Source of the DNA: a virus
Virus record (IMG/VR): IMGVR_UViG_3300019487_000070
Coordinates: 1-33,724 of that record
DNA: 33,724 bases
Reading direction: 5' to 3' (one strand)
The notes beneath the pieces were generated by a model. It saw only the letters and a program-made list of their open reading frames with translations, ran no database searches and had not been told where the DNA came from. Shown here piece after piece: positions 11,945 to 31,503 of this stretch. How positions within the stretch are numbered: position 1 is the stretch's first letter; each line of letters starts with the position of its first letter. Both the position numbers and the translations under genes were made by a program.

Positions 11945-12488
11945 CCCCACCCCCCTGCGCCTGTTGGAAGCGCAGCTCGTGATCGAAGTTCTTCAGAAAC
12001 GAGGCGTGCATCGCCTCGAGGACCTGCGGCCGATACTTCGCGAACACGCGGCCGAGCGACGGGCCGAACAGCTCCTGGATCGGCAGGCGTTGCCGCGTCC
12101 GGCGCGTGAAGACGCCCCGATGCCCGCTGCCCATCGTCGCGATAAAGGCGCCGGGCACGTGCCCCCGGCTCGCCCCGAGCTTGTAGGTGACGCGGCCCCG
12201 GCCGCGCGACGGCTCCGGCCCGCGGGCGTTGAATTGGATGAGGGGGATCCGCTTCAGACTCGCCCCGAGCTCGGCGCTGGGCCGCTGGAAGGTGGCGTCG
12301 CGTTGGCGCAGCGCCGTCCGGACGGCCGTCTGGCGCAGGCCGACGTCGCCGGCCATCGCGCGCACCATGACCGTCCGTCCGCTGACGAGCGCGCGGTTGA
12401 GGGCGCGGACCATCGCGCGCGTCGTCCGACCCGGGAAGTCCCGGAAGTCGGCGATCAGCGCCGCGTCGCCCTCGATGTGCAATTGCAT
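11928..12488 (-). CDS. Minor tail protein Z-like (tail completion)
   Basis: A 186-residue basic protein with an AGGGA Shine-Dalgarno six bases before ATG 12488. The N-terminal helix (DFPGRTTRAMVRALNRALVS, then GRTVMVRAMAGDVGLRQTAV), an IPLIQFNARGPEPSRGRGRV segment and a C-terminal PIQELFGPSLGRVFAKYRPQ helix are characteristic of prophage minor tail protein Z (GPZ) relatives. In lambda, gpZ acts at the head-proximal end of the tail before joining. The placement between the head-tail joining gene and the terminator agrees with that. Confidence 0.82.
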   Translation of the reverse strand: MQLHIEGDAALIADFRDFPGRTTRAMVRALNRALVSGRTVMVRAMAGDVGLRQTAVRTALRQRDATFQRPSAELGASLKRIPLIQFNARGPEPSRGRGRVTYKLGASRGHVPGAFIATMGSGHRGVFTRRTRQRLPIQELFGPSLGRVFAKYRPQVLEAMHASFLKNFDHELRFQQAQGGGDAGTD

Positions 12489-12497
12489 CGGTCGTCC

Positions 12498-12839
12498 CTA
12501 CTGCGTCAGTACCACCAGAGCGCGCCAGACCTGCGGGTCGTCCTGGTCGTCTGCATAGCCGTCCACCCGCCACGTTTTCACGGCCCCGCCCTGGATCTCC
12601 GGGGCGGCGATCGTCGTCCCCCGCGGGAGCGTCGGCACCGCCGACCGCACGAGATCCAATCGGCGCCGCGGCTCGCGCGCCCGGAAGTCCGTGCCGTACG
12701 GCTGCGCGTTCGCGACGGGGAGGCCCACCCAGATCGCCGTCGTGGCGATCGGCGTGTTCTCCGGCACCGGCCGCGTCACCGTGGCGGCCACGCCGTAGGC
12801 CGCCAGCAGCGGCGCGATCGGGACCCGCTGATCGGCCAT
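12498..12839 (-). CDS. Head-tail joining/completion protein
   Basis: A 113-residue protein lying between the cement protein and the gpZ-like gene. It has an N-terminal helix (VPIAPLLAAYGVAATVTRP), then beta segments (IATTAIWVGLPVAN, FRAREPRRRLDLVRSAVP, TIAAPEIQGGAVKTWRVDGY) and a final WRALVVLTQ strand. Size and order match lambda gpFII-type or gp16-type connector proteins, which attach to the portal/gpW and receive the tail. No individual diagnostic motif is certain, so the assignment rests mainly on position and secondary-structure pattern. Confidence 0.65.
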   Translation of the reverse strand: MADQRVPIAPLLAAYGVAATVTRPVPENTPIATTAIWVGLPVANAQPYGTDFRAREPRRRLDLVRSAVPTLPRGTTIAAPEIQGGAVKTWRVDGYADDQDDPQVWRALVVLTQ

Positions 12840-12845
12840 CCGCGA

Positions 12846-13562
12846 TCAGGCGTAGACGACGTACGCTTCCGCCGCCGCGGTGACGTTCGTCAGCCGGATG
12901 CGCACCACCTTCGAGGCGCCGCCGCCCACGATGCGCGAGACCGCCGTCTGATTCGCGTCGAAGCCTCCGCCGGTGCCGGCCGCCAGCGTGATGACCTCTG
13001 TGATCGGGTCGGACCCGTTGACGACCAGGCACTGGACCACATCGCCCACCTTCGCGCCCGGGATCGCCGCCACGAGCAGCGCCGCCGTCGGCAACGTGTC
13101 TGTCCGCGACGCGCCCGCGCAGTCGCGCACGATGATGCCGCCCAGAATCTGGGCCGCCGTATACGTCTCGGCGCCAGCCGTCGCCAGGGACGCGGCCGCA
13201 GGACCCGCCTCCCCCTGAATCGGCCCGATGCGCCAATCGAGCCGTACCTGGCCCGTGCTCGAGGGATTCGCCGCGTCGGCCGCCGCCACCCCGATGCGCC
13301 GGAACCCGGCGCTCGGGACGTTGTCGGCGCGCTTGTTGGTGTTGTCCCAGTAAATCGGGTCGCCGACGACCCAGGCCTGCGCGCTGGTCTTCGCCAGGTC
13401 CCAGACCCCATTGGTCGCGCCGACAAACGCCGCGGCCGCGGCCACCGTCTGAAGCGCGATCGAGAACAGGCGCCCGATGAGGACGCCGACGCCGGTCGTC
13501 ACGCCGCCGGTCGGGGCGGTGAGGTCCAGGTGTTTGCCTGGCTGCACGAAGTTCTTGGCCAT
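12846..13562 (-). CDS. DUF2190-type capsid cement protein with extra C-terminal domain
   Basis: A 238-residue protein with GAGGAG upstream of ATG 13562. Residues 1-110 fit DUF2190: MAKNFVQPGKHLDLTAPT, GVLIGRLFSIALQT, VWDLAKTSAQAWVVGDPIYW, then FRRIGVAAADA and GQVRLDWRIG. DUF2190 proteins decorate or stabilise HK97-fold capsids. The remaining 125 residues (AAQILGGIIVRDCAGASRTD, TGGGFDANQTAVSRIVGGG, VVRIRLTNVTAAAEAYVVYA) form a second beta-type domain ending in a single strand, not part of the minimal family. It may be an external decoration domain. The gene lies 88 bases after the major capsid gene and should be highly expressed. Confidence 0.8.
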   Translation of the reverse strand: MAKNFVQPGKHLDLTAPTGGVTTGVGVLIGRLFSIALQTVAAAAAFVGATNGVWDLAKTSAQAWVVGDPIYWDNTNKRADNVPSAGFRRIGVAAADAANPSSTGQVRLDWRIGPIQGEAGPAAASLATAGAETYTAAQILGGIIVRDCAGASRTDTLPTAALLVAAIPGAKVGDVVQCLVVNGSDPITEVITLAAGTGGGFDANQTAVSRIVGGGASKVVRIRLTNVTAAAEAYVVYA

Positions 13563-15847: not shown

Positions 15848-16159
15848 TCACGGCTTCGCGCGCGAGGGGGTCGTGTACAGAAGTCGTCTTGTGTGCGGTG
15901 TGTTGTCTTCTGTGTGCCTCGCGGCGCGTTCCCGGTCGAGGCTCCGTAGGAGCTTCTGGGCCTCGGACTCCCGAATGCGGAGTACGCGCGGCCCGACGCG
16001 CACGGCCGCGACCGCGCCTTTCCGAATCCAGCGACGCATCGTTTCCACATGGATCCGGCAGCGTGCGGCCACCTCGCTCGGCAGCAGCAACGGATCCTCC
16101 TCCCCGAGCGGCGGCGACCCAGGCAGCCCCATGGCCATCGCGTTCCAGGCCTGGCTCAC
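15848..16159 (-). CDS. Excisionase/MerR-like helix-turn-helix protein in head operon
   Basis: A 103-residue protein using a GTG that overlaps the portal stop (GTGA). Residues 25-75 hold an HTH_17-type domain: LLLPSEVAARCRIHVETMRR, WIRKGAVAAVRVGPRVLRI, RESEAQKLL. This is the wing-helix arrangement of excisionase and MerR-like DNA-binding domains. The N-terminal PGSPPLGEEDP and C-terminal tails are probably disordered. Lying between portal and protease, where lambda-like phages have no regulator, it may feed back on late transcription or act at a packaging site. A related domain is encoded at 33200-33484. Function is not known. Confidence 0.78.
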   Translation of the reverse strand: MSQAWNAMAMGLPGSPPLGEEDPLLLPSEVAARCRIHVETMRRWIRKGAVAAVRVGPRVLRIRESEAQKLLRSLDRERAARHTEDNTPHTRRLLYTTPSRAKP

Positions 16160-17667
16160 TCGTTCTCGGCTGACGGCGGCGCGGCCGCGCCGCCAGTCTG
16201 CGCGGCATTCCCTGCCTGCGTGGTCTTGCGCGGATCGCTATCCAGCGTGATCTTGAGCGCGTCGAGCCGGGCGAGGTCAGCGGCGTACTCGTCGAAATGC
16301 GTCTCCGGATCGAGACCGCGCTCGCGCAGGACCTGGCTGAAGGTCGCCTGGCCGCCCCGAATGCGCGCGATGTCCGCACGGGCCTCGCGATCGGGCTCGA
16401 TGACCGGCATCGGCTGCGCCGTCCAGTCCGCGGCGGGGGTCTCGGGGACCTCGCCGGCGACGAGCGCGGCCTCCATGGCCCAGGCCCAGATCCGATCACA
16501 GAGCGTCGGGACGAGCATGTTCCATTGCCAGTCGTAGACGTTGGCCCAATGGGCGAGCCGCGCCATGCGGGCCGAGCTGAAGTTGACGTGGGAATAGTCG
16601 CCGCTGATGTCCTCGTAGGTCACGCCGAGTCCGGCGGCCGCGGCGCGCAGCTGGCGCACATCGAAGGTGCCGTCGGGCACCTGCGGAGGCGCGACGAATT
16701 TCACCTCCTTGCCGACGGGCAGATATTGCACGAGTCCAGGCGAGAGGGTCCGCGCGAGCGGCGCGATGGCGCTCTGCTCGCCGGCGGGGAGCCCTGAGCC
16801 GTCGACGTCGGTCACGAACGCGGTCAGGCACGCCGCGATCTTTTGCTTGAAGAGCGTCGCGTCTTCGTATTCGTCGTAGTCCTTCAGGCGCACGATCACC
16901 GGCGCATACCACGAGGGCCCGCGCACCTGGCCTGGCCGCTCGATCTTATAGGCGTGGATCACGTCGGCGGCGGGCACGCGCTGCGACTGGCCGATCAACC
17001 AGCTCGTGCCGAGTTGATACGAGGCGCCAGGATGGACGCGAAAGAGCCAGTACGCGACACGTCGACCGTCCGCGTCGTACTCGACGCCTTGCACGATGCG
17101 GCCGCCACCCTCGGTCGGCACGCCGTCGCGCGTGGTGTCGAGATGGTCCGGTTCGAGGACCTGTAGCTGCAGCGGGAGCGTCAGTCGCTCGCGCGTGGAG
17201 CGCCAGTAGCGCCGCACGAGCACCTCGCCGCTTTCCACGATGGTCTCGATCGCCAGGCGCTGCATGCCATAGACGTTGAGCTGGCCGGCGACGTCGCACG
17301 CGGTCGTCTCGAAATGGCGTTGCCACAGGCGCCGCGCGCGCACCTGCGCGCGTGTGCCGGCGCGGACGGGTGTCGGCACGAGGCCCCAGCCGACGGTGTT
17401 GTTGGCGATCACCTGTTTGCCGCGTTTCGCCCAGGTGTTGTTGCGCACCAGGTCGCGCGCGATGTTCCTGAGCGTATGGAGGCTGGCCGCGTTCGCGGCG
17501 TTCGCGTCGCTGGCGACCTTCTTCCAGTGCTCGGTGCGGTAGCCGCCCTGCGCCGCTTCGTAGTGGCGTAGCAGCGACTCGGCGAGAACACGGGCGCGAA
17601 TGCGGTCGGCCGCGCGGCGTGGGGCGAGCTGTAGCAGCACGCGATCCAACAGATTCAGGCTGGCCAT
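16156..17667 (-). CDS. Portal protein, lambda gpB family
   Basis: A 503-residue protein from ATG 17667, two bases after the gpW-like stop. It shows the lambda-portal pattern: a basic N-terminal helix region (RIRARVLAESLLRHYEAAQG), HTLRNIARDLVRNNTWAKRG, then QVIANNTVGWGLVPTP, a CDVAGQLNVYGMQRLAIETI segment, SGEVLVRRYW, QVLEPDHLD and, near the C-terminus, GDYSHVNFSSARMARL. The dodecameric portal occupies one capsid vertex, binds terminase and is the DNA channel. A Gln/Ala-rich tail (QAGNAAQTGGAAAPPSAENE) is likely disordered. Gene order terminase-gpW-portal-protease-capsid supports the assignment. Confidence 0.92.
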   Translation of the reverse strand: MASLNLLDRVLLQLAPRRAADRIRARVLAESLLRHYEAAQGGYRTEHWKKVASDANAANAASLHTLRNIARDLVRNNTWAKRGKQVIANNTVGWGLVPTPVRAGTRAQVRARRLWQRHFETTACDVAGQLNVYGMQRLAIETIVESGEVLVRRYWRSTRERLTLPLQLQVLEPDHLDTTRDGVPTEGGGRIVQGVEYDADGRRVAYWLFRVHPGASYQLGTSWLIGQSQRVPAADVIHAYKIERPGQVRGPSWYAPVIVRLKDYDEYEDATLFKQKIAACLTAFVTDVDGSGLPAGEQSAIAPLARTLSPGLVQYLPVGKEVKFVAPPQVPDGTFDVRQLRAAAAGLGVTYEDISGDYSHVNFSSARMARLAHWANVYDWQWNMLVPTLCDRIWAWAMEAALVAGEVPETPAADWTAQPMPVIEPDREARADIARIRGGQATFSQVLRERGLDPETHFDEYAADLARLDALKITLDSDPRKTTQAGNAAQTGGAAAPPSAENE

Positions 17668-17877: not shown

Positions 17878-19857
17878 TCATCGTCCTTTCTTGAGCCAAT
17901 CGGGCCGCGGCGGAATCCACGGGCGCGGCGACGGGGTCGGGGAGGTCGGTGCCGCCGGCGCCGGCGGGGGCGGCATGTCCTGGCCGATCGCGGCCTCGAG
18001 CGTCTGCCAGTCGGCGTCGCTGAATCGGTCGAGCCCGAGGACGGCGGCGGCCGCGCGCGCGTAGACGCGGCAGTCGAGCGCGTGATTCTCTTTCCCCGGC
18101 GGCAGCGTCCACTGATAGACGGTGAAGCCCTGGGCCGTGCGGGTCGCCTGCAGCTGCTCGGCGGTGAGTTGCTGGAAGTAGGCCTCGGCGTATTCCGGGA
18201 AGCGGCAGTACCCGGGCGGCTCACCGGCGCCGTCCCTGGCCCGGAGCTTCAGCCAGCCGTACAGCTCGCTCTTCGCGATCGTGGGCGCGATGGGCCAGAC
18301 GCGATAGCCGACCTTCTTGCCCCCGATCGTGACGTCGATCTTTGATGGCAGGCCGACAAGCACGCCGGCGCGGTCCGTGCCCTTGACCGCGATCACCCGC
18401 GACAGCGGATAGCCGCGGGCCCACCCATACACGATCTGGGTGTTGTAGCCGCTGTCGATCGCGAGCATGCGAACCGGGAGCTCGGCGCCGCCGGCGTGGC
18501 GGAACGTGCGCTCGAGCAGCGCGGCGAGCGTGGGCCAGGGGCCGGTCGGCGACGTATCGGACGTCTCGCCTGGAATCGCGTGCGCCTCGATCGACCACGA
18601 CCGCTTGCCGCGGCCCCAGCCCACGACTTCGTAGATGAGGTAATTCTTCTGGACGTCCACACCGGCGGTCAGGAGCAGCACGCCCGGCGGGCACGTGCCG
18701 ATCGGATAGGGCTCGCGCCGCTGATAGAGCAGCTCCCAGTCTGGCGCCTCGCCGTCTTCCTTCCAGGTCTCGCCGAGGCCGGTATTGACGAACGTCTTGA
18801 GCGTCTCCCGGTTGTCGCGGGCCTGTTCGTATTCCGCGGCGAGCTGCGCCCAGCTCGCGTTCGGGGAGTAGCTGTAGGCGGCCCAGATGTGGAAACTCGC
18901 GTGTCCCGTGAACGGCGCGTGCGCAACCCACCCAATGCCTGGCTCGCCGTCGCGTTGTCGGCGATCGGCCACCTCGATCATCGCGCGCTTGTCCTTGTGC
19001 TCGATGACCCCGCCGCACGCCCGGCAGACGAAGTGCGCCGTCGCTGGGTGCCCCTTCGTCCACCGGAGCACGTGCCCGATCGGGGCGCCAGTGTCCTCAT
19101 CGGTCACCGCGCGCTGAAACACGAGCGGCGCCATGTGGCCACACTGTGGACACGGCACGTAGTACCGCCGCTGGTCGCCGGCCATGTAGAGCAGCTCGAT
19201 GCGGCTGGCGCCGGCGAGCGTCGGCGTGCTGCCCCAGACCAGTTTGCGATTCCAGAAGTACTCACTGCGGCGGGTCGCCAGCGCGATCGGGTCGCCCTCC
19301 TGGCCGGCGCTCGGCGGATACCCGTCGACCTCGTCGCCAAACACGAGGCGCCGCGACACGCGGCGGAACGCGGCCGGGCTGCGGGCGCCCACGATCTGCA
19401 GCACGCCGCCACGAAACCGCTTATGAAGGAGCGTGTTCTTCCGTTCGTCTTCTTCGGGGAATTTCTCCGCCAGCACCGCACAATCGCGCAACATCGGCGC
19501 GATTTCTTCTTTGCTGTAGCCTTTCGCGTCTTGAATCGTCGGCTGGATGAGCAGCATCGCGCACGGGTCGTGGTGGATGTGAAACCCGATCGCGGCGTTC
19601 AGCATCTTCGTGTAGCCGACGCGCGCGGACTTCATGACCGTGATCTGCTCGACACGCGGGTCGGTGACGCAGTCCATCGGCGCGCGCTGATACGGCAGGG
19701 TGTGCCACCGACCAGGTTCCGCGGACGATTCCGGCGAGAGATAGAAGTGCTCGTCGGCCCACTCGGAGAGCTTCAGCCGCGGCGGCGGCCGCCAGGCCTG
19801 CAGCGCGTGGGCGACCAGCGCGTCGGCCGAGGCCAGGCCGTCGAGGACCTGCATCAT
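17878..19857 (-). CDS. Terminase large subunit, GpA family
   Basis: A 659-residue protein whose first ATG overlaps the upstream stop (ATGA). The N-terminal ATPase has a Walker A-like KSARVGYTK at 76-84 and Walker B LVFGDE at 171-176. Two Cys pairs (CPQC at 236-239 and CRAC at 278-281) form the zinc site of the GpA family. The C-terminal nuclease shows GVDVQ (D401), LAIDSGYNT (D468) and ALDCRVYARAA (D595), the three acidic positions expected of the RNase H-like fold. It cuts concatemeric DNA and drives packaging. A Pro-rich C-terminal tail (PPPPAPAAPTSPTPSPRP) probably contacts the portal. It is lambda-like in order, so cos packaging is likely. Confidence 0.95.
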   Translation of the reverse strand: MMQVLDGLASADALVAHALQAWRPPPRLKLSEWADEHFYLSPESSAEPGRWHTLPYQRAPMDCVTDPRVEQITVMKSARVGYTKMLNAAIGFHIHHDPCAMLLIQPTIQDAKGYSKEEIAPMLRDCAVLAEKFPEEDERKNTLLHKRFRGGVLQIVGARSPAAFRRVSRRLVFGDEVDGYPPSAGQEGDPIALATRRSEYFWNRKLVWGSTPTLAGASRIELLYMAGDQRRYYVPCPQCGHMAPLVFQRAVTDEDTGAPIGHVLRWTKGHPATAHFVCRACGGVIEHKDKRAMIEVADRRQRDGEPGIGWVAHAPFTGHASFHIWAAYSYSPNASWAQLAAEYEQARDNRETLKTFVNTGLGETWKEDGEAPDWELLYQRREPYPIGTCPPGVLLLTAGVDVQKNYLIYEVVGWGRGKRSWSIEAHAIPGETSDTSPTGPWPTLAALLERTFRHAGGAELPVRMLAIDSGYNTQIVYGWARGYPLSRVIAVKGTDRAGVLVGLPSKIDVTIGGKKVGYRVWPIAPTIAKSELYGWLKLRARDGAGEPPGYCRFPEYAEAYFQQLTAEQLQATRTAQGFTVYQWTLPPGKENHALDCRVYARAAAAVLGLDRFSDADWQTLEAAIGQDMPPPPAPAAPTSPTPSPRPWIPPRPDWLKKGR

Positions 19858-20141
19858 GATGGCGGCCCAGACGGTGCGGCCAACATGGCAGCCCTGGTGT
19901 GATAGTCGTCGGCCGCGATCTCGTATCGCTTGATCGCCTCACCGTAACTGGCGTGGAGTCGCAGCCGCGCCTCGTCATAGTCGGTGGCTGCACGCGCGAT
20001 CTTCGCCGCGGCATCCGCCTGGAGTCGTGTCTGCGTCCCAAGCTCGCGCGCGATCGTATCGACGGCCTTGGCGATGCTCCCGACCAACGCCAACGCCAGC
20101 AGCGCACAGAAGATTCCAATCCAGGCGAGCGCAGCGATCAT
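19854..20141 (-). CDS. Small membrane-anchored coiled-coil protein between terminase genes
   Basis: A 95-residue protein coupled on both sides by ATGA overlaps. Residues 3-24 (ALAWIGIFCALLALALVGSI) are one hydrophobic helix; the rest is an Ala/Arg/Glu-rich coiled coil (LGTQTRLQADAAAKIARAAT, DEARLRLHASYGEAIKRYE). There is no lipobox. N-anchored coiled-coil proteins of this size include i-spanins (Rz-like), so a lysis role is conceivable. But no partner o-spanin, endolysin or holin is next to it, and a place between terminase subunits is unusual. It is not recognised as any named family. Confidence 0.65.
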   Translation of the reverse strand: MIAALAWIGIFCALLALALVGSIAKAVDTIARELGTQTRLQADAAAKIARAATDYDEARLRLHASYGEAIKRYEIAADDYHTRAAMLAAPSGPPS

Positions 20142-20968
20142 GCAGCTGCTCCGTTCTCTTCCGCTGCTGGCGGCGGCACGAGCTCCTCGAGCGCCTCGCG
20201 CACGATCGCGTCGATCGCGGCCAGGTCCTCGAGCGTGAGATGCGGCAGCCGCTGCTTCGCCTTGCTCGGCAGCCCGAGCAACTTGGTGCGGCAGATGGTG
20301 ATCGCGTCGACGAGTTGCGCCGTGACGACCGCGGCCTCGACCAGCTCGCCGGCGCGCTCGCGGTACTTCAGCTCCGCGAGCTTCGCGCGGAAGTGCTTCT
20401 CCCGGGCAGACGCCGTGGCCAGGGATTGGGCGTCTGAGGCTTCAGCTAGAATCCCTTCGTCCGACGACGTCGGAACTGAAGCCGGATGGCCGGTGCTATC
20501 AAGGCCGGTTCTGGAATGCCGGTCCCGCGCGTGGGGCGGGGAGAGGGGCGCGCCCTGAATCGCTCCCCGCTGTGGTTCTAATCCACCGTCCGGCGTCGTC
20601 GGCCGTAACGCAGCGCGAACCTTCACATCGTCAGGTGCACGCGACAGGTCGGTGTTCGCGTCCCACTCCCGATCCGCCGCCGCCGCGTCAGCGATCCGCG
20701 GCCGGTTGTCGACGTACACCAGGCTCGTGCGGAGCCGGCCACTGGCCACCGCCCGCATCACCGCCTGGTGGGAGACCTGCCGGTGACGGGCGTACGCCCG
20801 AAGCGAGAGCGATTGTCCGGCTTCAGCTGGACGCGCCGGCGCCGCCCCGCCAGGCCCGGCCGTCTGGCCGCCCTGCCGCGACCGACCACCGCGACGACCC
20901 TTCGCGGCTCCTGCGGGCTTCTGCGGCTTCCGACGGGTGGTCCGCCTGATCCGGGTGGTAACACTCAT
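20138..20968 (-). CDS. Terminase small subunit (Nu1-like)
   Basis: A 276-residue protein. Residues 1-45 are very basic and low complexity. LRAYARHRQVSHQAVMRAVA (about 56-76) followed by SGRL...VDNRPRI is a helix-turn-helix with a wing, the DNA-binding domain of Nu1-type small terminases. A disordered middle follows, then a C-terminal helical region (EKHFRAKLAELKYRERAGEL, VTAQLVDAITICRTKLLGLP, LEDLAAIDAIVREALEEL) that is typical for oligomerisation and terminase large-subunit contact. It precedes the large subunit with one small gene between. It should recognise the packaging site, which may lie nearby. Confidence 0.85.
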   Translation of the reverse strand: MSVTTRIRRTTRRKPQKPAGAAKGRRGGRSRQGGQTAGPGGAAPARPAEAGQSLSLRAYARHRQVSHQAVMRAVASGRLRTSLVYVDNRPRIADAAAADREWDANTDLSRAPDDVKVRAALRPTTPDGGLEPQRGAIQGAPLSPPHARDRHSRTGLDSTGHPASVPTSSDEGILAEASDAQSLATASAREKHFRAKLAELKYRERAGELVEAAVVTAQLVDAITICRTKLLGLPSKAKQRLPHLTLEDLAAIDAIVREALEELVPPPAAEENGAAA

Positions 20969-21067
20969 TTCGGCTCAGAGATACGTCTACGGCGCGACGC
21001 GGAGCGCCCGCTCACGGCGGCGGCGATCCTAGGACCCAACGGCAGGGGGGGTACGTTGCTGAAGCGC
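20969..21067. other. Unassigned intergenic region before small terminase gene
   Basis: A 99-base gap between the HNH gene stop and the TerS start. It holds a TCCTAGGA palindrome at about 21027-21034 and a C7 run on the minus strand, but no promoter or terminator that I can defend. In lambda-like phages cos lies just upstream of the small terminase gene, so this gap is a candidate by position only. Confidence 0.3.
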
Positions 21068-21872: not shown

Positions 21873-22637
21873 TCATCCCCGCCGCCTTGCTGCCTTAACC
21901 CGTACCGTGCTCGCGGCCCTGCCGCGCGTGGCGTCACGTGTCGCAGCCGTGACCCGCGCGGTGAGCAGCGTGCGCACGTTGACGCCGTAGTAGTCGCGCA
22001 CGTCCGCGTACGTGAAGCGCCCCACGAGCGCACGCAGCATGGTGCGCATGTCGTGCACGCGGGCACGTGAGACCGTCGGCGAGGGAGTCGCGTCGACGTC
22101 GATGAGCGCATTCACCTGGTCACCCGTACGCAGTAGGTAGAGGACGCAGCCACGTGCGCGTGCTGCGATCGCGACGTAGACCGCGCGCTTCTGCAGTACG
22201 AGCTGCCCGATGGCGTGCATCGTCCCGAGCCCAGCACGGAACATCTCGAACAGTGCCGTCGCCGCGGGCCCGTCAGGAATCAGGCGCGCCGTCATGGCGA
22301 TGCACAAGGGATTCAGCGGCTGCTCGAGCATCGCCGTGATCGTGAGCGTCGAGGACGGCGCCGGCTCACAGGTGGCGAGGTCCGTATCGGTGATCTCGAG
22401 GTACTGGCCAGGGGCGTACTCAAACACGCGCACGACGTCGGTCTGCTTCAATTGTCGGTCGCAGGTCGGACACCACTTTTTCTGCTGCAGCCGTGTGAGC
22501 GTGGTGGCTGAGCAGCGGTGCGCGTGGTTGAACGAGACCGTTCCGGCGGATGCGTCGATCGTGACAATCCGCACAAGTAGGTTGACTTCCGTGTTAACTA
22601 CGGTGAGCGTGCCTTTCCAGATGGTGCGCGTGCTCAT
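21873..22637 (-). CDS. ku: Phage Ku homologue (DNA end-binding)
   Basis: A 254-residue protein from an ATG that overlaps the previous stop (ATGA). It matches bacterial/phage Ku throughout: TIWKGTLTVVNTEVNLLVRI at the N-terminus, HAH-RC near 38-42, a CPTC pair (56-59) at the place of the RxCxxC segment, then TDVVRVFEYAPGQYLEITD, a PLNPLCIAMTARLIPDGP strand, FEMFRAGLGTMHAIGQLVLQ and RAVYVAIAARARGCVLYLLR. These correspond to the Ku beta-barrel ring. Bacterial Ku threads on double-strand ends and recruits LigD. The C-terminus is basic. Known phage Ku proteins (for example in Corndog-type phages) may aid genome circularisation; that role here is inference. No LigD-like ligase is in the window. Confidence 0.85.
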   Translation of the reverse strand: MSTRTIWKGTLTVVNTEVNLLVRIVTIDASAGTVSFNHAHRCSATTLTRLQQKKWCPTCDRQLKQTDVVRVFEYAPGQYLEITDTDLATCEPAPSSTLTITAMLEQPLNPLCIAMTARLIPDGPAATALFEMFRAGLGTMHAIGQLVLQKRAVYVAIAARARGCVLYLLRTGDQVNALIDVDATPSPTVSRARVHDMRTMLRALVGRFTYADVRDYYGVNVRTLLTARVTAATRDATRGRAASTVRVKAARRRG

Positions 22638-22921
22638 GCCCAGCGCGCCAACGCCGCGCGCCCTTTGTCTGTGAGATATCCGAGGGAGGGGATCGTCCCC
22701 TCCGTCACGTAGCCGCGCGTCCGGAGATCATCGAGGCGCGCGAGGACCGCGCGTTCCCCATGCGCATCGAAGAGCGCGAAGAGGCGCTGCCGCAACGCCG
22801 GCGTCTCGGACGGTGCGGCCAACTGGAGGCACGCCAGCGAGAAGTCGTTCAGCGGGCTGGCGATCTTGCGCGAGAGCCGCGGCGGCGGCGGCCAGCGGTG
22901 GGGCGCCTTTATCTTTATCAC
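22634..22921 (-). CDS. Winged-helix-like small protein
   Basis: A 95-residue protein from a GTG overlapping the previous stop (GTGA). A basic N-terminus (IKIKAPHRWPPPPRLSRKI) is followed by helices (PLNDFSLACLQLAAPSETPA, LRQRLFALFDAHGERAVLAR) and LDDLRTRGYVTEGTIPSLGY with LTDKGRAALARWA. The last segment reads like the helix-wing of winged-helix proteins, in which a YLT-x-KG-x-x-AL motif is frequent. It may be a regulator of the neighbouring Ku gene, to which it is coupled, but this is inferred. No named family is recognised. Confidence 0.65.
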   Translation of the reverse strand: MIKIKAPHRWPPPPRLSRKIASPLNDFSLACLQLAAPSETPALRQRLFALFDAHGERAVLARLDDLRTRGYVTEGTIPSLGYLTDKGRAALARWA

Positions 22922-23127
22922 GGTCCGTCGATCAGATGCCCGCCGACGTCGGCCGGCGGATCGGTGAGGGCGCCGAGCTGCGCCCGCAGGTCGGCGAGCT
23001 GGGCTTCGAGCGCCGCCAGCTGTTCGCGCTGCTTCGCGCGCGGGTTCACGATGACCATCGACGTCGGTGTTTCACCGATGACCTCCCACGGGTCCTCGTC
23101 GCCGACGATGCGGATGGTCCGGGCCAT
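22918..23127 (-). CDS. Small beta-barrel plus coiled-coil protein
   Basis: A 69-residue protein. The first 30 residues (ARTIRIVGDEDPWEVIGETP, then TSMVIVNPRAKQ) resemble a small SH3/KOW-like barrel fragment, and the rest is a heptad-type helix (REQLAALEAQLADLRAQLGA). The IGETPT motif reappears in the protein at 23904-24143, suggesting paralogy. The stop overlaps the next gene start as GTGA. There is no obvious Shine-Dalgarno. Function unknown. Confidence 0.6.
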   Translation of the reverse strand: MARTIRIVGDEDPWEVIGETPTSMVIVNPRAKQREQLAALEAQLADLRAQLGALTDPPADVGGHLIDGP

Positions 23128-24997: not shown

Positions 24998-25684
24998 TTA
25001 CGCCGACACCGCCGCCGTGTCCTCGACGATCTGCTCCGCCTGGATCTCCGCCCGCTGCTCGACCCAGCGCAGCCAGCAGGGGCATCGTGTCAGGCGTTCG
25101 GTGCGGGTGTTCGTGTCGAGGACCGCGACGTAGCCCGGGTGCCCGGTGTCTCGGCACGTGGCGCACGGCTCGAATGGCGTCGTGAGAGTGGACCGCCGGA
25201 GCGCCAGGGCGAACGCCTCAAGGTCTGACGTCCACGTGCCATACCGCTCGACAATGGCCCGGAACTCCTCGATGTCGTGCCGCCGCGTGCGGTAGACCTT
25301 GCGGCCGCGCTCATCCTCCACCGGCTCGCCCCGCGCGTCGTATTTCATGGCGGCGTGACAGAGCTCGTGGTCGAGCAGGGCGCGCCGTTGCTGCGGGGTC
25401 ACTTCCTCGTGTGTCCAGAACGATCGCCGGAGCAGGATCACAAAGTCCCACTGCGACAGTTCCCGATCGAAGTCGGAGGCCTTCCGACACATGCCGAGCT
25501 TCACGCGGCCGTCGGCGTCCGGTTTCCACGAGAGATTCCACGCCAACCCGATCCGCGCCTGGCGCAGGTCGGTGTGATGGAGGTCGACGAGCTCATCGAG
25601 CAGGCAGTACATCGGATGCCCGATGACACTGTCGCGCGTGAGAAGTTCGTAGTGGACGGCTTTCGGTTTAGGCGCCTTCGGCAT
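24998..25684 (-). CDS. Phage metallopeptidase (HExxH) with C-terminal Cys module
   Basis: A 228-residue protein with GGGAG six bases before ATG 25684. HELCH at 106-110 is a zincin-type HExxH motif, inside RRALLDHELCHAAMKYDARG, and RRHDIEEFRAIVERYG downstream contains candidate third-ligand residues. An upstream segment (HHTDLRQARIGLAWNLSWKP) matches the putative phage metallopeptidase family. The C-terminus carries a Cys module, PCATCRDTG (C174, C177) and RCPCW (C201, C203), that recurs in the protein at 26921-27337. The enzyme is presumably cytoplasmic; its substrate is unknown. In this family the peptidase might act on host defence or regulatory proteins, which is conjecture. Confidence 0.82.
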   Translation of the reverse strand: MPKAPKPKAVHYELLTRDSVIGHPMYCLLDELVDLHHTDLRQARIGLAWNLSWKPDADGRVKLGMCRKASDFDRELSQWDFVILLRRSFWTHEEVTPQQRRALLDHELCHAAMKYDARGEPVEDERGRKVYRTRRHDIEEFRAIVERYGTWTSDLEAFALALRRSTLTTPFEPCATCRDTGHPGYVAVLDTNTRTERLTRCPCWLRWVEQRAEIQAEQIVEDTAAVSA

Positions 25685-26165
25685 GCTCGACTCCCTTCTG
25701 CGGCGGCAGCTCCACGCCGCGCGCACGAAACGCTTCCGTGATCAACTCGATCGCCCCACCGTCGCGAATCATCGTGGTCGTGACGCGCACGACGAGCCAG
25801 CCAAGAATCGCGGCATACGAGTACTTGAAACAATCCGCCTGCATGCCTTCGCCGGTGTTGTGCCGACCGCCCGCGCGGATGACGGTTCCGGGTTTCAGTG
25901 GAATCGTCTGCCCGCGGCGCCGCTCGTAGCCGCTCGTCACCACGAGGTAGCGGCCGAACGCGCCGCCCTCGACTTCGATGGCGATGCGGTGGCCGATGTA
26001 CGCGTAATCGAACGCCCACTTCCGACCGATCGATGTGGCGAAGAGATGCTCGGGCTCCGGCTCCGGCAACCCAACAGCCGCAAGCTGCGCCTCTAAGTCC
26101 GGCCGCTTGCCGGTGCTGACCTTCTGCGTCGCGAAGAGGCGCGGGTGGCGAGCGGGGCGCGGCAT
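25668..26165 (-). CDS. PD-(D/E)XK-type endonuclease
   Basis: A 165-residue protein whose start overlaps the 22-codon ORF before it (TAATG). The core reads AFDYAYIGHRIAIEVEGGAF with D53 and E64/E66, then GGRHNTGEGMQADCFKYSYA with K114, then ILGWLVVRVTTTMI. This D-x(10)-ExE plus downstream H/N-rich loop and Lys helix is the PD-(D/E)XK nuclease arrangement used by Vsr-, Holliday-junction- and DUF559-like enzymes. It lacks an obvious DNA-binding add-on, so it is likely a small structure-specific nuclease or restriction-type enzyme. It shares 17 bases with the metallopeptidase gene, which suggests a single translation unit. Confidence 0.75.
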   Translation of the reverse strand: MPRPARHPRLFATQKVSTGKRPDLEAQLAAVGLPEPEPEHLFATSIGRKWAFDYAYIGHRIAIEVEGGAFGRYLVVTSGYERRRGQTIPLKPGTVIRAGGRHNTGEGMQADCFKYSYAAILGWLVVRVTTTMIRDGGAIELITEAFRARGVELPPQKGVEHAEGA

Positions 26166-29017: not shown

Positions 29018-29238
29018 ACGCCGACCAGCTCGCGAGTCGCGGCGACCGGCCCAGGGTGACTCGGCTGGTCGTCACTAAAGCTGTTCTCGACGAAGGCGAG
29101 CACGCGCTGTCGGTCGCGCGTGCCGAGCGGCATCAGGGCGGCGACGACGTTCATGAGCGCCCGCGTCGCCGGATCGCTGATGGCCTCTTGGAGTCGTTCA
29201 CCTTCGGACTTGTCTTTCACCTGCACTGCGACTTTCAT
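29014..29238 (-). CDS. Small conserved-looking phage protein
   Basis: A 74-residue protein coupled to both neighbours by ATGA and TATGA overlaps. Sequence: KVAVQVKDKSEGERLQEAIS, DPATRALMNVVAALMPLGTR, DRQRVLAFVENSF. The pattern DPATRALMxxxxALxPLxxRxRxRVLAFV is one I associate with short proteins in phage recombination operons, but no function is established to my knowledge. A helical hairpin is likely. It sits between the two nucleases. Confidence 0.65.
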   Translation of the reverse strand: MKVAVQVKDKSEGERLQEAISDPATRALMNVVAALMPLGTRDRQRVLAFVENSFSDDQPSHPGPVAATRELVGV

Positions 29239-30275
29239 GACGGCACCTCCGGTGTTGGCGCGGCATCGCCGAGCCGTGTGATCTCCAGCGTGAACCGCCC
29301 CTGCATGTCGGTTCTCGTGTATTGCTGTTTCAGCGCCTCCGGCAGCTCGAGGCGCGAGGACTTCCCCCACGTCCCCGACACGTGAAAGTGGCCGCAGATG
29401 CCCTGCTCGACGCCGCGCAGCTGCTCCTTGATGCGCTTGTCGAGCCTGGCGTATTCCTTCCCGGCGGCTTCGATCTGCGCGCGCCGCTCGAGCGCCGCCT
29501 CGAGCTCCGGATCCGTGAAGACCTGGACGCCGGGCGACGAGATCGGCGGTTGGCAGGCGGTCCCGAAGAACGGGCACCGCTGGCACTCCCCGGGCTGGCC
29601 GACGAGAAAGTCCGGCAGCGTACTGGCGCGCTGGTGGTCGATGGCGCGCTCGGCCCTGGTGAGGAACTCCTCGACGCGGTCGAGATGCGCGTCGAGCTCC
29701 ACCGGCAGCGGCAGCGGCAGGCCGGACCGATCGAGCAGCAAGAACCCGAACGGCTGCGCGGTCGCGTAGAGGTAGACCAGGAGCTGATACCCGCCGCTCC
29801 GCGTCCACGGTTGGTCGAAGAGGTCCTCGAACCGGTCGATGCGCTCGACGAGATGCGGCGCCCACGCCTTCACCTCGAGCGGCGCGCTGACGCCGGGCGC
29901 CTGCACCCGCGCGTCGACCTTCCCGACGATGGCCACGCGGCCCTGACGGTCCTTCACCTCGAACCGCTCCTGCTGGCCGATGACCTGGAATGACGGCTCG
30001 GCATCGCGGCCGATGCGCGCCAGGTCGGTGAGGAGGTCCCGTTCGCGATCGTCGCCGCGGCGGAACCGTGCGAGCACCTCCGGCGGGAAGGGCGGCTTCT
30101 GATCCGGGACCGTCATGTCGAGCACCATCCGGCGGTCACAGACGCTCCAGCCGCTTGCGTACACGTAGGGATGCGGGGCAGGGGGTCGGCGGTCGCGCTC
30201 GAGAAACCGGGACCAGGACGCCTCGATCGCGGAGGCCAGCTGCGCCGGGGAGATGGCGGCGGTGCTGCTGGTCAC
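29235..30275 (-). CDS. Cas4/RecB-like nuclease with Fe-S Cys pattern
   Basis: A 346-residue protein from a GTG overlapping the upstream stop (GTGA). Motifs in Cas4 order: first Cys at C46 (SVCDRRM), GRVAIVGKVDARVQ (D121), APLEVKAW (E134, K136), the QxxxY motif GGYQLLVYLY (Q164), and the last three cysteines CQRCPFFGTAC (C231, C234, C241). This set (C...D...ExK...QxxxY...CxxCx6C) is that of Cas4- and AddB-type 5'-3' resection nucleases. The C-terminal 90 residues, helical then beta (RLDKRIKEQLRGVEQGICGH), are an added domain. It may supply single-stranded ends for the neighbouring annealing candidate. Confidence 0.87.
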   Translation of the reverse strand: MTSSTAAISPAQLASAIEASWSRFLERDRRPPAPHPYVYASGWSVCDRRMVLDMTVPDQKPPFPPEVLARFRRGDDRERDLLTDLARIGRDAEPSFQVIGQQERFEVKDRQGRVAIVGKVDARVQAPGVSAPLEVKAWAPHLVERIDRFEDLFDQPWTRSGGYQLLVYLYATAQPFGFLLLDRSGLPLPLPVELDAHLDRVEEFLTRAERAIDHQRASTLPDFLVGQPGECQRCPFFGTACQPPISSPGVQVFTDPELEAALERRAQIEAAGKEYARLDKRIKEQLRGVEQGICGHFHVSGTWGKSSRLELPEALKQQYTRTDMQGRFTLEITRLGDAAPTPEVPS

Positions 30276-30514
30276 AGCGACTCCAGTGCGCGGTTCAGCC
30301 CGAAGCGGATGACGCGGAGCTCGTTCTCGCTGAATGCCGGCGGATGTTCAGGCCCTTCCGGACCTTCGTACGCGATCTCAACGATGTTCTTCAGGCCAGG
30401 TCCCAGGTGCTCGGTGATGCGTGCGACGACTCCCGCGACCGCCGCCTGCACCATGTCCGCGTTTGCGCCGGTACCGAATTCCGGATCGAACGAGTCGGAC
30501 ACAGGGCCTGGCAT
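30272..30514 (-). CDS. Hypothetical small protein
   Basis: An 80-residue protein; ATG 30514 overlaps the upstream stop (TGATG), and a GTG at 30517 is possible. It has an acidic N-terminus (DSFDPEFGTGANADMVQA), a helix with VAGVVARITEHLGPGLKNIV, then EIAYEGPEGPEH and a final helix (SENELRVIRFGLNRALESL). No motif is recognised. It is coupled to the Cas4-like gene, so perhaps a partner of the recombination proteins. Confidence 0.6.
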   Translation of the reverse strand: MPGPVSDSFDPEFGTGANADMVQAAVAGVVARITEHLGPGLKNIVEIAYEGPEGPEHPPAFSENELRVIRFGLNRALESL

Positions 30515-31503
30515 CACCGCCTCCTATTGCCACGGCCGCCGCCGAAGTCGAGATCCGAATCGGTGATGAGCGGCGGTTCGTCGGCGGGCACGGGAGAGGC
30601 GGGCGCCGGCACGGACTGCTGCGTCGGCGCGCTGTTCGCCGTCGCCTGGCCGGCACCCTGTTGAGCCTTGACGTCGATCGGCTTCGAGCGCGGGTCCTGC
30701 TTCCACTTCTCGAGGTCGAGCGTCCACTTCTTGTCCTCGTGCTGCTTCCACCGCGGGCACCCGTAGAACGGCCCGCGCGCGCTCGAGCGCAGGACCGCGA
30801 CCGCGCCGCAATGCGGGCAGCTCGGCGGCACGACGTCGGTCGGCGCGTCGGGATGCTCGCCACCGGATCGCTCCTGCGTGGTCCCGAAGCCGCGGCCGCG
30901 CCGACAGTCAGCCGCCTTCTTATGCGTGCCGGTCCACGCCGCCTCGAGCTCCGCGAGGGGCACGGAGCCGAGGCCGGCGAGCTCGCGTACGATCTGCCCG
31001 TCGAGATTGGCCCGGGCGGCTTTCCGCACGGCGAGCTCGAGCGCCGCGCCCGTTTTGTCTTTGCAGAAGTCCTCCGTCGACGAGCGCCCGCCCTCGATGC
31101 CTTCGATCATCTGTCCCGTCAGCGAGCACCGGCCGTCGCCGCGCACGAGGTAATGAAACGTATTGGCATCGGCGCCGGCGATCTTCTCGGGCGCGTGCAC
31201 GTTCTCGATGCCAATCCCGAAGATGTCGCGCACGCGTTCGCAGCCGGAATCCTGCAGGTAGCCGACGATCTGCCCGCCCTGATCGTCCTTCGCCTTGAAC
31301 AGGATCCAGTCGGTCGGATGCGTGGCGCGGATGCCGGCCTTGCGCGCCGTCTCGAGGACGCGGATGCGGGCCTCGATGATCTCGTGCCCCTCGCCTCGGA
31401 GATTCGCAAGTTCGGCGAGGGTGGTCGGGACGCCGGGGTGTCGAATCAGGTCCGTCGTCGGTTCGTCCTCGCGGTCGAGGACGTCGGTGTCAGTTGTCGG
31501 CAT
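30514..31503 (-). CDS. DNA metabolism protein with zinc finger and acidic tail; possible annealing protein
   Basis: A 329-residue protein with AAAGG before ATG 31503. The central domain (about 55-200) includes THPTDWILFKAKDDQGGQIV, CERVRDIFGIGIENVH, EGGRSSTEDFC and LELAVRKAARANLDGQIVRE, a conserved block seen in phage recombination operons. A CPHCGAVAVLRSSARGPFYG...C topoisomerase-type zinc finger follows (about 228-250), and the C-terminus is disordered ending in the acidic DSDLDFGGG, similar in style to SSB tails. With the Cas4-like nuclease next to it, a role as single-strand annealing or recombination mediator is a reasonable inference; I do not recognise a named family. Confidence 0.65.
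   Translation of the reverse strand: MPTTDTDVLDREDEPTTDLIRHPGVPTTLAELANLRGEGHEIIEARIRVLETARKAGIRATHPTDWILFKAKDDQGGQIVGYLQDSGCERVRDIFGIGIENVHAPEKIAGADANTFHYLVRGDGRCSLTGQMIEGIEGGRSSTEDFCKDKTGAALELAVRKAARANLDGQIVRELAGLGSVPLAELEAAWTGTHKKAADCRRGRGFGTTQERSGGEHPDAPTDVVPPSCPHCGAVAVLRSSARGPFYGCPRWKQHEDKKWTLDLEKWKQDPRSKPIDVKAQQGAGQATANSAPTQQSVPAPASPVPADEPPLITDSDLDFGGGRGNRRR

Follow-up and report, generated by a model that had tools for sequence, protein, structure and literature searches.

The window analysed here spans the whole of an IMG/VR record (33,724 bases, classed as linear) and encodes a genuine Ku homologue that lies far from typical Ku. The protein is likely derived from the Ku of its probable hosts, the Vicinamibacterales (Acidobacteriota), and, as judged by alignment, has neither the helix that docks LigD nor an unaltered motif for Ku-Ku synapsis. 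The reading that best accounts for these features, to which we assign an even chance of being correct, is that a host-derived and strongly remodelled Ku binds, holds or protects the phage DNA ends, perhaps with no part in Ku-LigD joining of the classical kind. Almost all of the phage Kus discussed in experimental work come from mycobacteriophages; in the model for these phages, a 4-base end needs Ku and host LigD. The present analysis extends phage Ku to probable Acidobacteriota phages, provides a Ku in which the recently defined LigD and synapsis surfaces are missing or altered, and connects ku with HNH and terminase genes in viruses whose terminases belong to two unrelated types. It raises the questions of whether a Ku ring without the LigD helix is still useful to a phage, and whether Ku is active at cos ends.

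Identification of a divergent Ku homologue

Sequence and structure searches agree on the Ku identity of the 254-residue product, bearing out the assignment made in an earlier note on this DNA. The protein matches PF02735 (Ku70/Ku80 beta-barrel) with 34.4 bits against a curated cut-off of 25 (E 2.6e-8), phrog_4873 ('Ku-like DNA end binding') at 1.7e-10 over residues 4-231, Ku structure 9vnq in a sequence search of the PDB at 7e-8, and TIGR02772 at E 5e-22 over profile positions 1-232 of 259. The strong, full-length profile match that had been expected was not obtained: the 78.6 bits on TIGR02772 fall below the 150-bit equivalog cut-off for bacterial NHEJ Ku, and the last 27 profile positions are unmatched. 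On the same profile the Ku of the probable host scores 274 bits, that of viral record L117 260 bits and that of Firecracker, a Corndog relative, 168 bits. The AlphaFold2 monomer model (pLDDT 75) has bacterial Kus as its best solved matches, with Z-scores of 17.5 for 9vnq (B. subtilis) and 17.1 for 9i91 (M. tuberculosis) across residues 3-177. At E values up to 0.1, Pfam and PHROGs returned no family other than Ku; the Mu Gam family profile was unmatched, and PADLOC gave no defence match for the protein.

The open reading frame runs from an ATG start to a TGA stop and contains the IWKG (residues 6-9) and RGCVLYLLR motifs. Its GC content at codon positions 1, 2 and 3 (0.63, 0.52 and 0.82) is coding-like, and its start overlaps the stop of the preceding gene (ATGA).

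Descent of the viral Ku and its probable host

Of 162 Vicinamibacterales genomes searched with the window Ku, 104 contain a matching Ku, with full-length matches down to E 2e-35; identity from residue 1 to about residue 231 is 27-34%, and 31-34% for the best. The window protein and the chromosomal Kus of this order (e.g. L125 and G036 contig C46) have in common an SFNxxH...QQKKWCPxC signature (Table 1). In two trees the window Ku is sister to one of two Vicinamibacterales Ku clades (support 99/90 and 96/92), on a very long branch of 3.0-4.1 changes per column. Placement with mycobacteriophage Ku is less likely, as the best trees favour Vicinamibacterales, although the AU test does not reject that grouping (p 0.156). 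Given this p-value and the very long branch, descent from a Vicinamibacterales Ku is likely, short of proven. The trees weaken a kinship with the Corndog and Omega Kus, the phage examples named in the earlier note. The Kus of cluster J/O mycobacteriophages (Omega, Corndog, Firecracker, Pound) resemble that of the window in being phage-encoded, and share about 21-23% identity with it; those phages have no LigD, and none is visible in the window record, which may be incomplete.

Relatives of the window's large terminase subunit at 55-62% identity come from viral contigs of metagenomes and from one MAG of the Vicinamibacterales (L069), in which a phage module matches the window in its head-decoration protein (74%), minor tail protein (58%) and TerL (57%). 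The host is probably a soil acidobacterium of the order Vicinamibacterales.

A single-sequence search with the window Ku returned no relatives in 50,697 phage records or in IMG/VR; profiles and host-type Ku were therefore taken as queries, a mixed Ku alignment being too divergent to serve as one. With typical-Ku queries, 82 of the 50,697 named-phage records contained Ku, and 81 of these were mycobacteriophages, in keeping with the claim that Ku is rare in phages. No Ku was found in the TerL relatives or in three relatives of the window's putative exonuclease.

The ku gene adjoins the packaging genes

The minus-strand gene order is two small ORFs, ku, HNH, terS, a small ORF, terL, portal, and then the capsid and tail genes (Table 1). 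The HNH gene is the immediate downstream neighbour of ku, separated from it by 85 bp. The two small ORFs preceding ku likely lie in the same operon with it; the nearer one, for which profile searches gave no family match, looks by eye like a small winged helix.

Table 1. Features of the ku region and packaging module of the window.
Feature	Position	Strand	Evidence or remark
Portal protein, lambda family	16156..17667	-	PF05136 6e-101
Terminase large subunit (TerL), lambda GpA type	17878..19857	-	PF20454 2.3e-84; PF05876 6.6e-78
Terminase small subunit (TerS)	20138..20968	-	phrog_57 4e-21
Non-coding gap HNH/terS, 99 bp	20969..21067	-	Candidate cos region by synteny with relatives' termini
HNH endonuclease, 239 aa	21068..21787	-	PF01844 2.2e-7; phrog_1271 1.7e-18
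ku-like gene, 254 aa	21873..22637	-	PF02735, phrog_4873 and TIGR02772 matches; AlphaFold2 model against solved bacterial Ku
Ku C-terminal tail, residues 232-254, RDATRGRAASTVRVKAARRRG	21876..21944	-	Basic; without LigD-docking helix [LIV][MLIV]xx[LIM]xxS
Ku residues 40-59, HRCSATTLTRLQQKKWCPTC, Cys-bearing signature	22461..22520	-	Alignment; common to Vicinamibacterales Ku (LHxECQTRIQQKKWCPxC)
Ku residues 13-21, VVNTEVNLL	22575..22601	-	Alignment; at GLVN[IV]P filament/synapsis loop of other bacterial Kus
95-aa ORF	22634..22921	-	Stop overlaps ku start (ATGA)
69-aa ORF	22918..23127	-	Overlaps the 95-aa ORF

In two contigs with a related packaging module (L006/L162 and L047/L163; 48.2 and 46.8 kb), 12-base terminal repeats (GGTGCGTAGAAT; GGTGTACGCAGG) lie immediately upstream of terS, and a lambda-like CGCGAAATC... 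element comes after them; further contigs begin at the same place. These two contigs are apparently complete genomes with lambda-like cos ends. The equivalent place in the window is the 99-bp gap between HNH and terS, which by synteny is likely the cos region; the right-hand end of the linear genome would then be occupied by Ku and HNH. Neither a position-weight search based on the relatives' cosN nor motif scans of the window gave a credible site, and a candidate 12-base end picked by eye, GAGCGGGCGCTC at 21013-21002, was dropped as evidence. By analogy with lambda, the relatives' 12-base ends would be long enough to anneal. Mycobacteriophage J/O genomes, by contrast, have 4-base 3' ends, and the reasoning built on these for mycobacteriophage Ku may therefore not apply here.

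The HNH protein of HK97 promotes cos cleavage (PMC9410871), so the association of ku with an HNH gene points to end metabolism. The earlier note had linked the position of ku beside the HNH and terminase genes to cos, and comparative evidence strengthens this connection to the genome ends, since ku has the same neighbours in four further viral lineages, whose terminase is unrelated to the window's. When host-type Ku was the query, five more viral contigs (L185-L189) were identified, with 66-67% GC and Vicinamibacterales-type Kus, which form a clade nested within the Vicinamibacterales Ku clade (93/96) and retain the C-terminal helix; one further search added L191-L193. In seven of the eight contigs ku lies 44-1340 bp from HNH, followed by terS and terL. 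These seven represent four lineages (L186, L187, L188 and the L189/L191/L192/L193 group), and their terminases are of the HK97/TerL_ATPase type, a family unrelated to the window TerL. The set differs from the window in that ku is divergent from HNH and in that the Kus retain the LigD helix and fall inside the host clade. No ATP ligase was found in the five records of the set that were tested. A single founding event may underlie all four lineages, so ku beside HNH may have been gained fewer times than there are lineages; and since these other HNH-linked Kus retain the helix, the position by itself is no sign of a LigD-free role. No homologues of the window terminase or HNH lie within about 2.5 kb on either side of ku in Pound and Firecracker. 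The eighth contig, L185, is the exception in that its ku is not beside HNH-terS-terL; its Ku lies amid metabolic genes (aminotransferase, oxidoreductase), it shares the window gene at 30272-30517 (48%), and it may be a prophage edge.

Loss and alteration of the interaction surfaces

Alignment of the window Ku with other Kus indicates changes at the LigD-docking helix, the synapsis motif and several DNA-contact residues. All 71 other full-length Kus compared have a recognisable C-terminal helix pattern; the window protein has none, and its matches to host Ku mostly stop near residue 231. A frameshift was rejected as the cause, the other two frames after residue 230 containing no such helix when read by eye. 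This minimal helix is the LigD recruitment site in the Kus of B. subtilis and P. aeruginosa (PMC13201618). Without this segment, through which the repair ligase is normally recruited, the window Ku probably has an unusual way of handling the viral DNA ends.

The GLVN[IV]P loop, which makes the Ku-Ku contacts in synapsis, is also changed. Oligomerisation is abolished by the substitutions L30G and N32E in B. subtilis Ku (bsKu) and by L13A/V14A in the M. tuberculosis (Mtb) protein; in M. smegmatis, repair is not complemented by the counterpart of L13A/V14A (PMC12784961, PMC12658125). The window loop has a 2-residue insertion, and its G and P are gone under either gap placement; the position of bsKu L30 is occupied by E17 in the alignments made, or by V13 with the alternative gap. 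Vicinamibacterales chromosomal Kus have the LigD helix, a basic extension and an intact [SG]LVx[IV]P, and the mycobacteriophage J/O Kus retain GLVxVP and DL[VL]AKLEAS, unlike the window Ku. Among the DNA contacts of bsKu, W22, K23, K36 and K79 are retained as W, K, R and R, whereas K106, R126, Y128, R161 and R188, in the second DNA-binding motif, align with S, M, A, Q and N; the R126 and R161 positions vary in host-type Ku too.

Paired, neighbouring and oppositely oriented Ku genes occur in Tabrizicola soli (L173/L177) and Gluconacetobacter johannae (L175/L178), and in each pair a single copy carries E where bsKu has the synapsis residue L30; these sequences are suggestive of heterodimeric Ku.

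Proposed role of the viral Ku

In the reading that we prefer, a tailed phage of probable Vicinamibacterales hosts would have captured Ku from that host lineage and then remodelled it. The protein would form a ring on double-stranded DNA ends and act on the ends of the phage genome itself, either those made at cos in packaging or those entering at injection, and would mainly protect or hold them. Sealing might fall to the host's ordinary ligase after cos annealing, or to host LigD recruited via the Ku core; classical helix-dependent recruitment of LigD would not be the route. Among known phage proteins, Mu Gam is a ring resembling Ku that binds the phage DNA ends and protects them; according to Bhattacharyya et al. 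(2018), cited in PMC8136500, it reportedly promotes NHEJ together with E. coli ligase. The window Ku is closer to bacterial Ku than to Gam, whose family it does not match. Counting against the preferred reading are the five replaced DNA contacts, the retention of the helix in HNH-linked Kus elsewhere, the unrecognised cos of the window and the chance that the four other lineages inherited their gene order from one event. A more ambitious version, in which Acidobacteriota phages repeatedly joined host-derived Ku to HNH-terS-terL as a cos end-management module and the window Ku was stripped to a ligase-independent end cap, is one that we put forward tentatively.

The model developed for Corndog and Omega, in which phage Ku binds the injected genome ends, recruits host LigD and circularises the genome by NHEJ, is somewhat unlikely to hold for the window, and the earlier note's proposal that host LigD is recruited is weakened. 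Circularisation by NHEJ, with Ku at the genome ends, is the model for cluster J/O mycobacteriophages (PMC3706429, PMC4351075), and several observations speak for it here. A match to the ATP-dependent ligase domain (PF01068) is absent from the 33.7-kb record, which may be incomplete, so that no ligase of the phage's own is visible, as had been noted. The search for ligD in the predicted host order was positive, with the LigD polymerase in 109 of 149 Vicinamibacterales genomes (67 of these over the curated cut-off), and the MAG bearing the related phage module encodes both Ku and LigD. Furthermore, the core of Mtb Ku is by itself enough for LigD binding at wild-type affinity (PMC9638933), and the mechanism might operate through the core. 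Against the model, the LigD-docking helix is missing, and none of five point mutants in the C-terminal region of Mtb Ku stimulated end ligation (PMC9638933); the synapsis motif is altered, and the ends of the relatives are 12-base rather than 4-base.

Interference with the host, in which the phage Ku would pair or compete with host Ku through mixed rings or end-capping and so block or redirect host NHEJ, appears improbable. Ku is common in the likely hosts (98 of 149 genomes), and the window protein retains the barrel/ring part with the LigD and Ku-Ku surfaces lost or altered, as expected of a dominant-negative. The two bacteria with neighbouring Ku pairs fit this idea in having one copy with E at the L30 position, but both of these copies retain the C-terminal helix.

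A last reading, that the ku gene was captured from a host and is now decaying without a function, could be suggested by its very long branch, the loss of several conserved residues and the failure to find a close relative, but is improbable too in view of its intact frame, coding-like codons (third-position GC 0.82), translational overlap with its neighbour and retained fold signal.

Other genes of the window and of Ku-bearing viruses

Elsewhere on the minus strand, 29235-30275 has a weak Cas4-like/PD-(D/E)XK exonuclease match and 30514-31503 encodes an unassigned protein with a C-terminal zinc ribbon (AlphaFold2 pLDDT 40). The pair is conserved in contigs L056, L057 and L058 (44-63% identity), which suggests a recombination module. 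The product of 24998-25726 (minus strand) matches Pfam PhageMetallopep at 4.8e-22; PHROGs labels the same family 'transposase', probably wrongly.

Among Ku-bearing viral records, the LigD polymerase domain was found in none of the 13 tested, and an ATP-dependent ligase lies near ku in three of the 14 searched (L115, L116, L117). These three, with Ku and a nearby ATP-dependent DNA ligase and with no LigD polymerase domain, are possible self-contained two-gene phage end-joining sets. In L113, a polynucleotide kinase gene (phrog_505; 12038-12982) lies about 3 kb from the viral Ku gene, where a function in end processing is possible.
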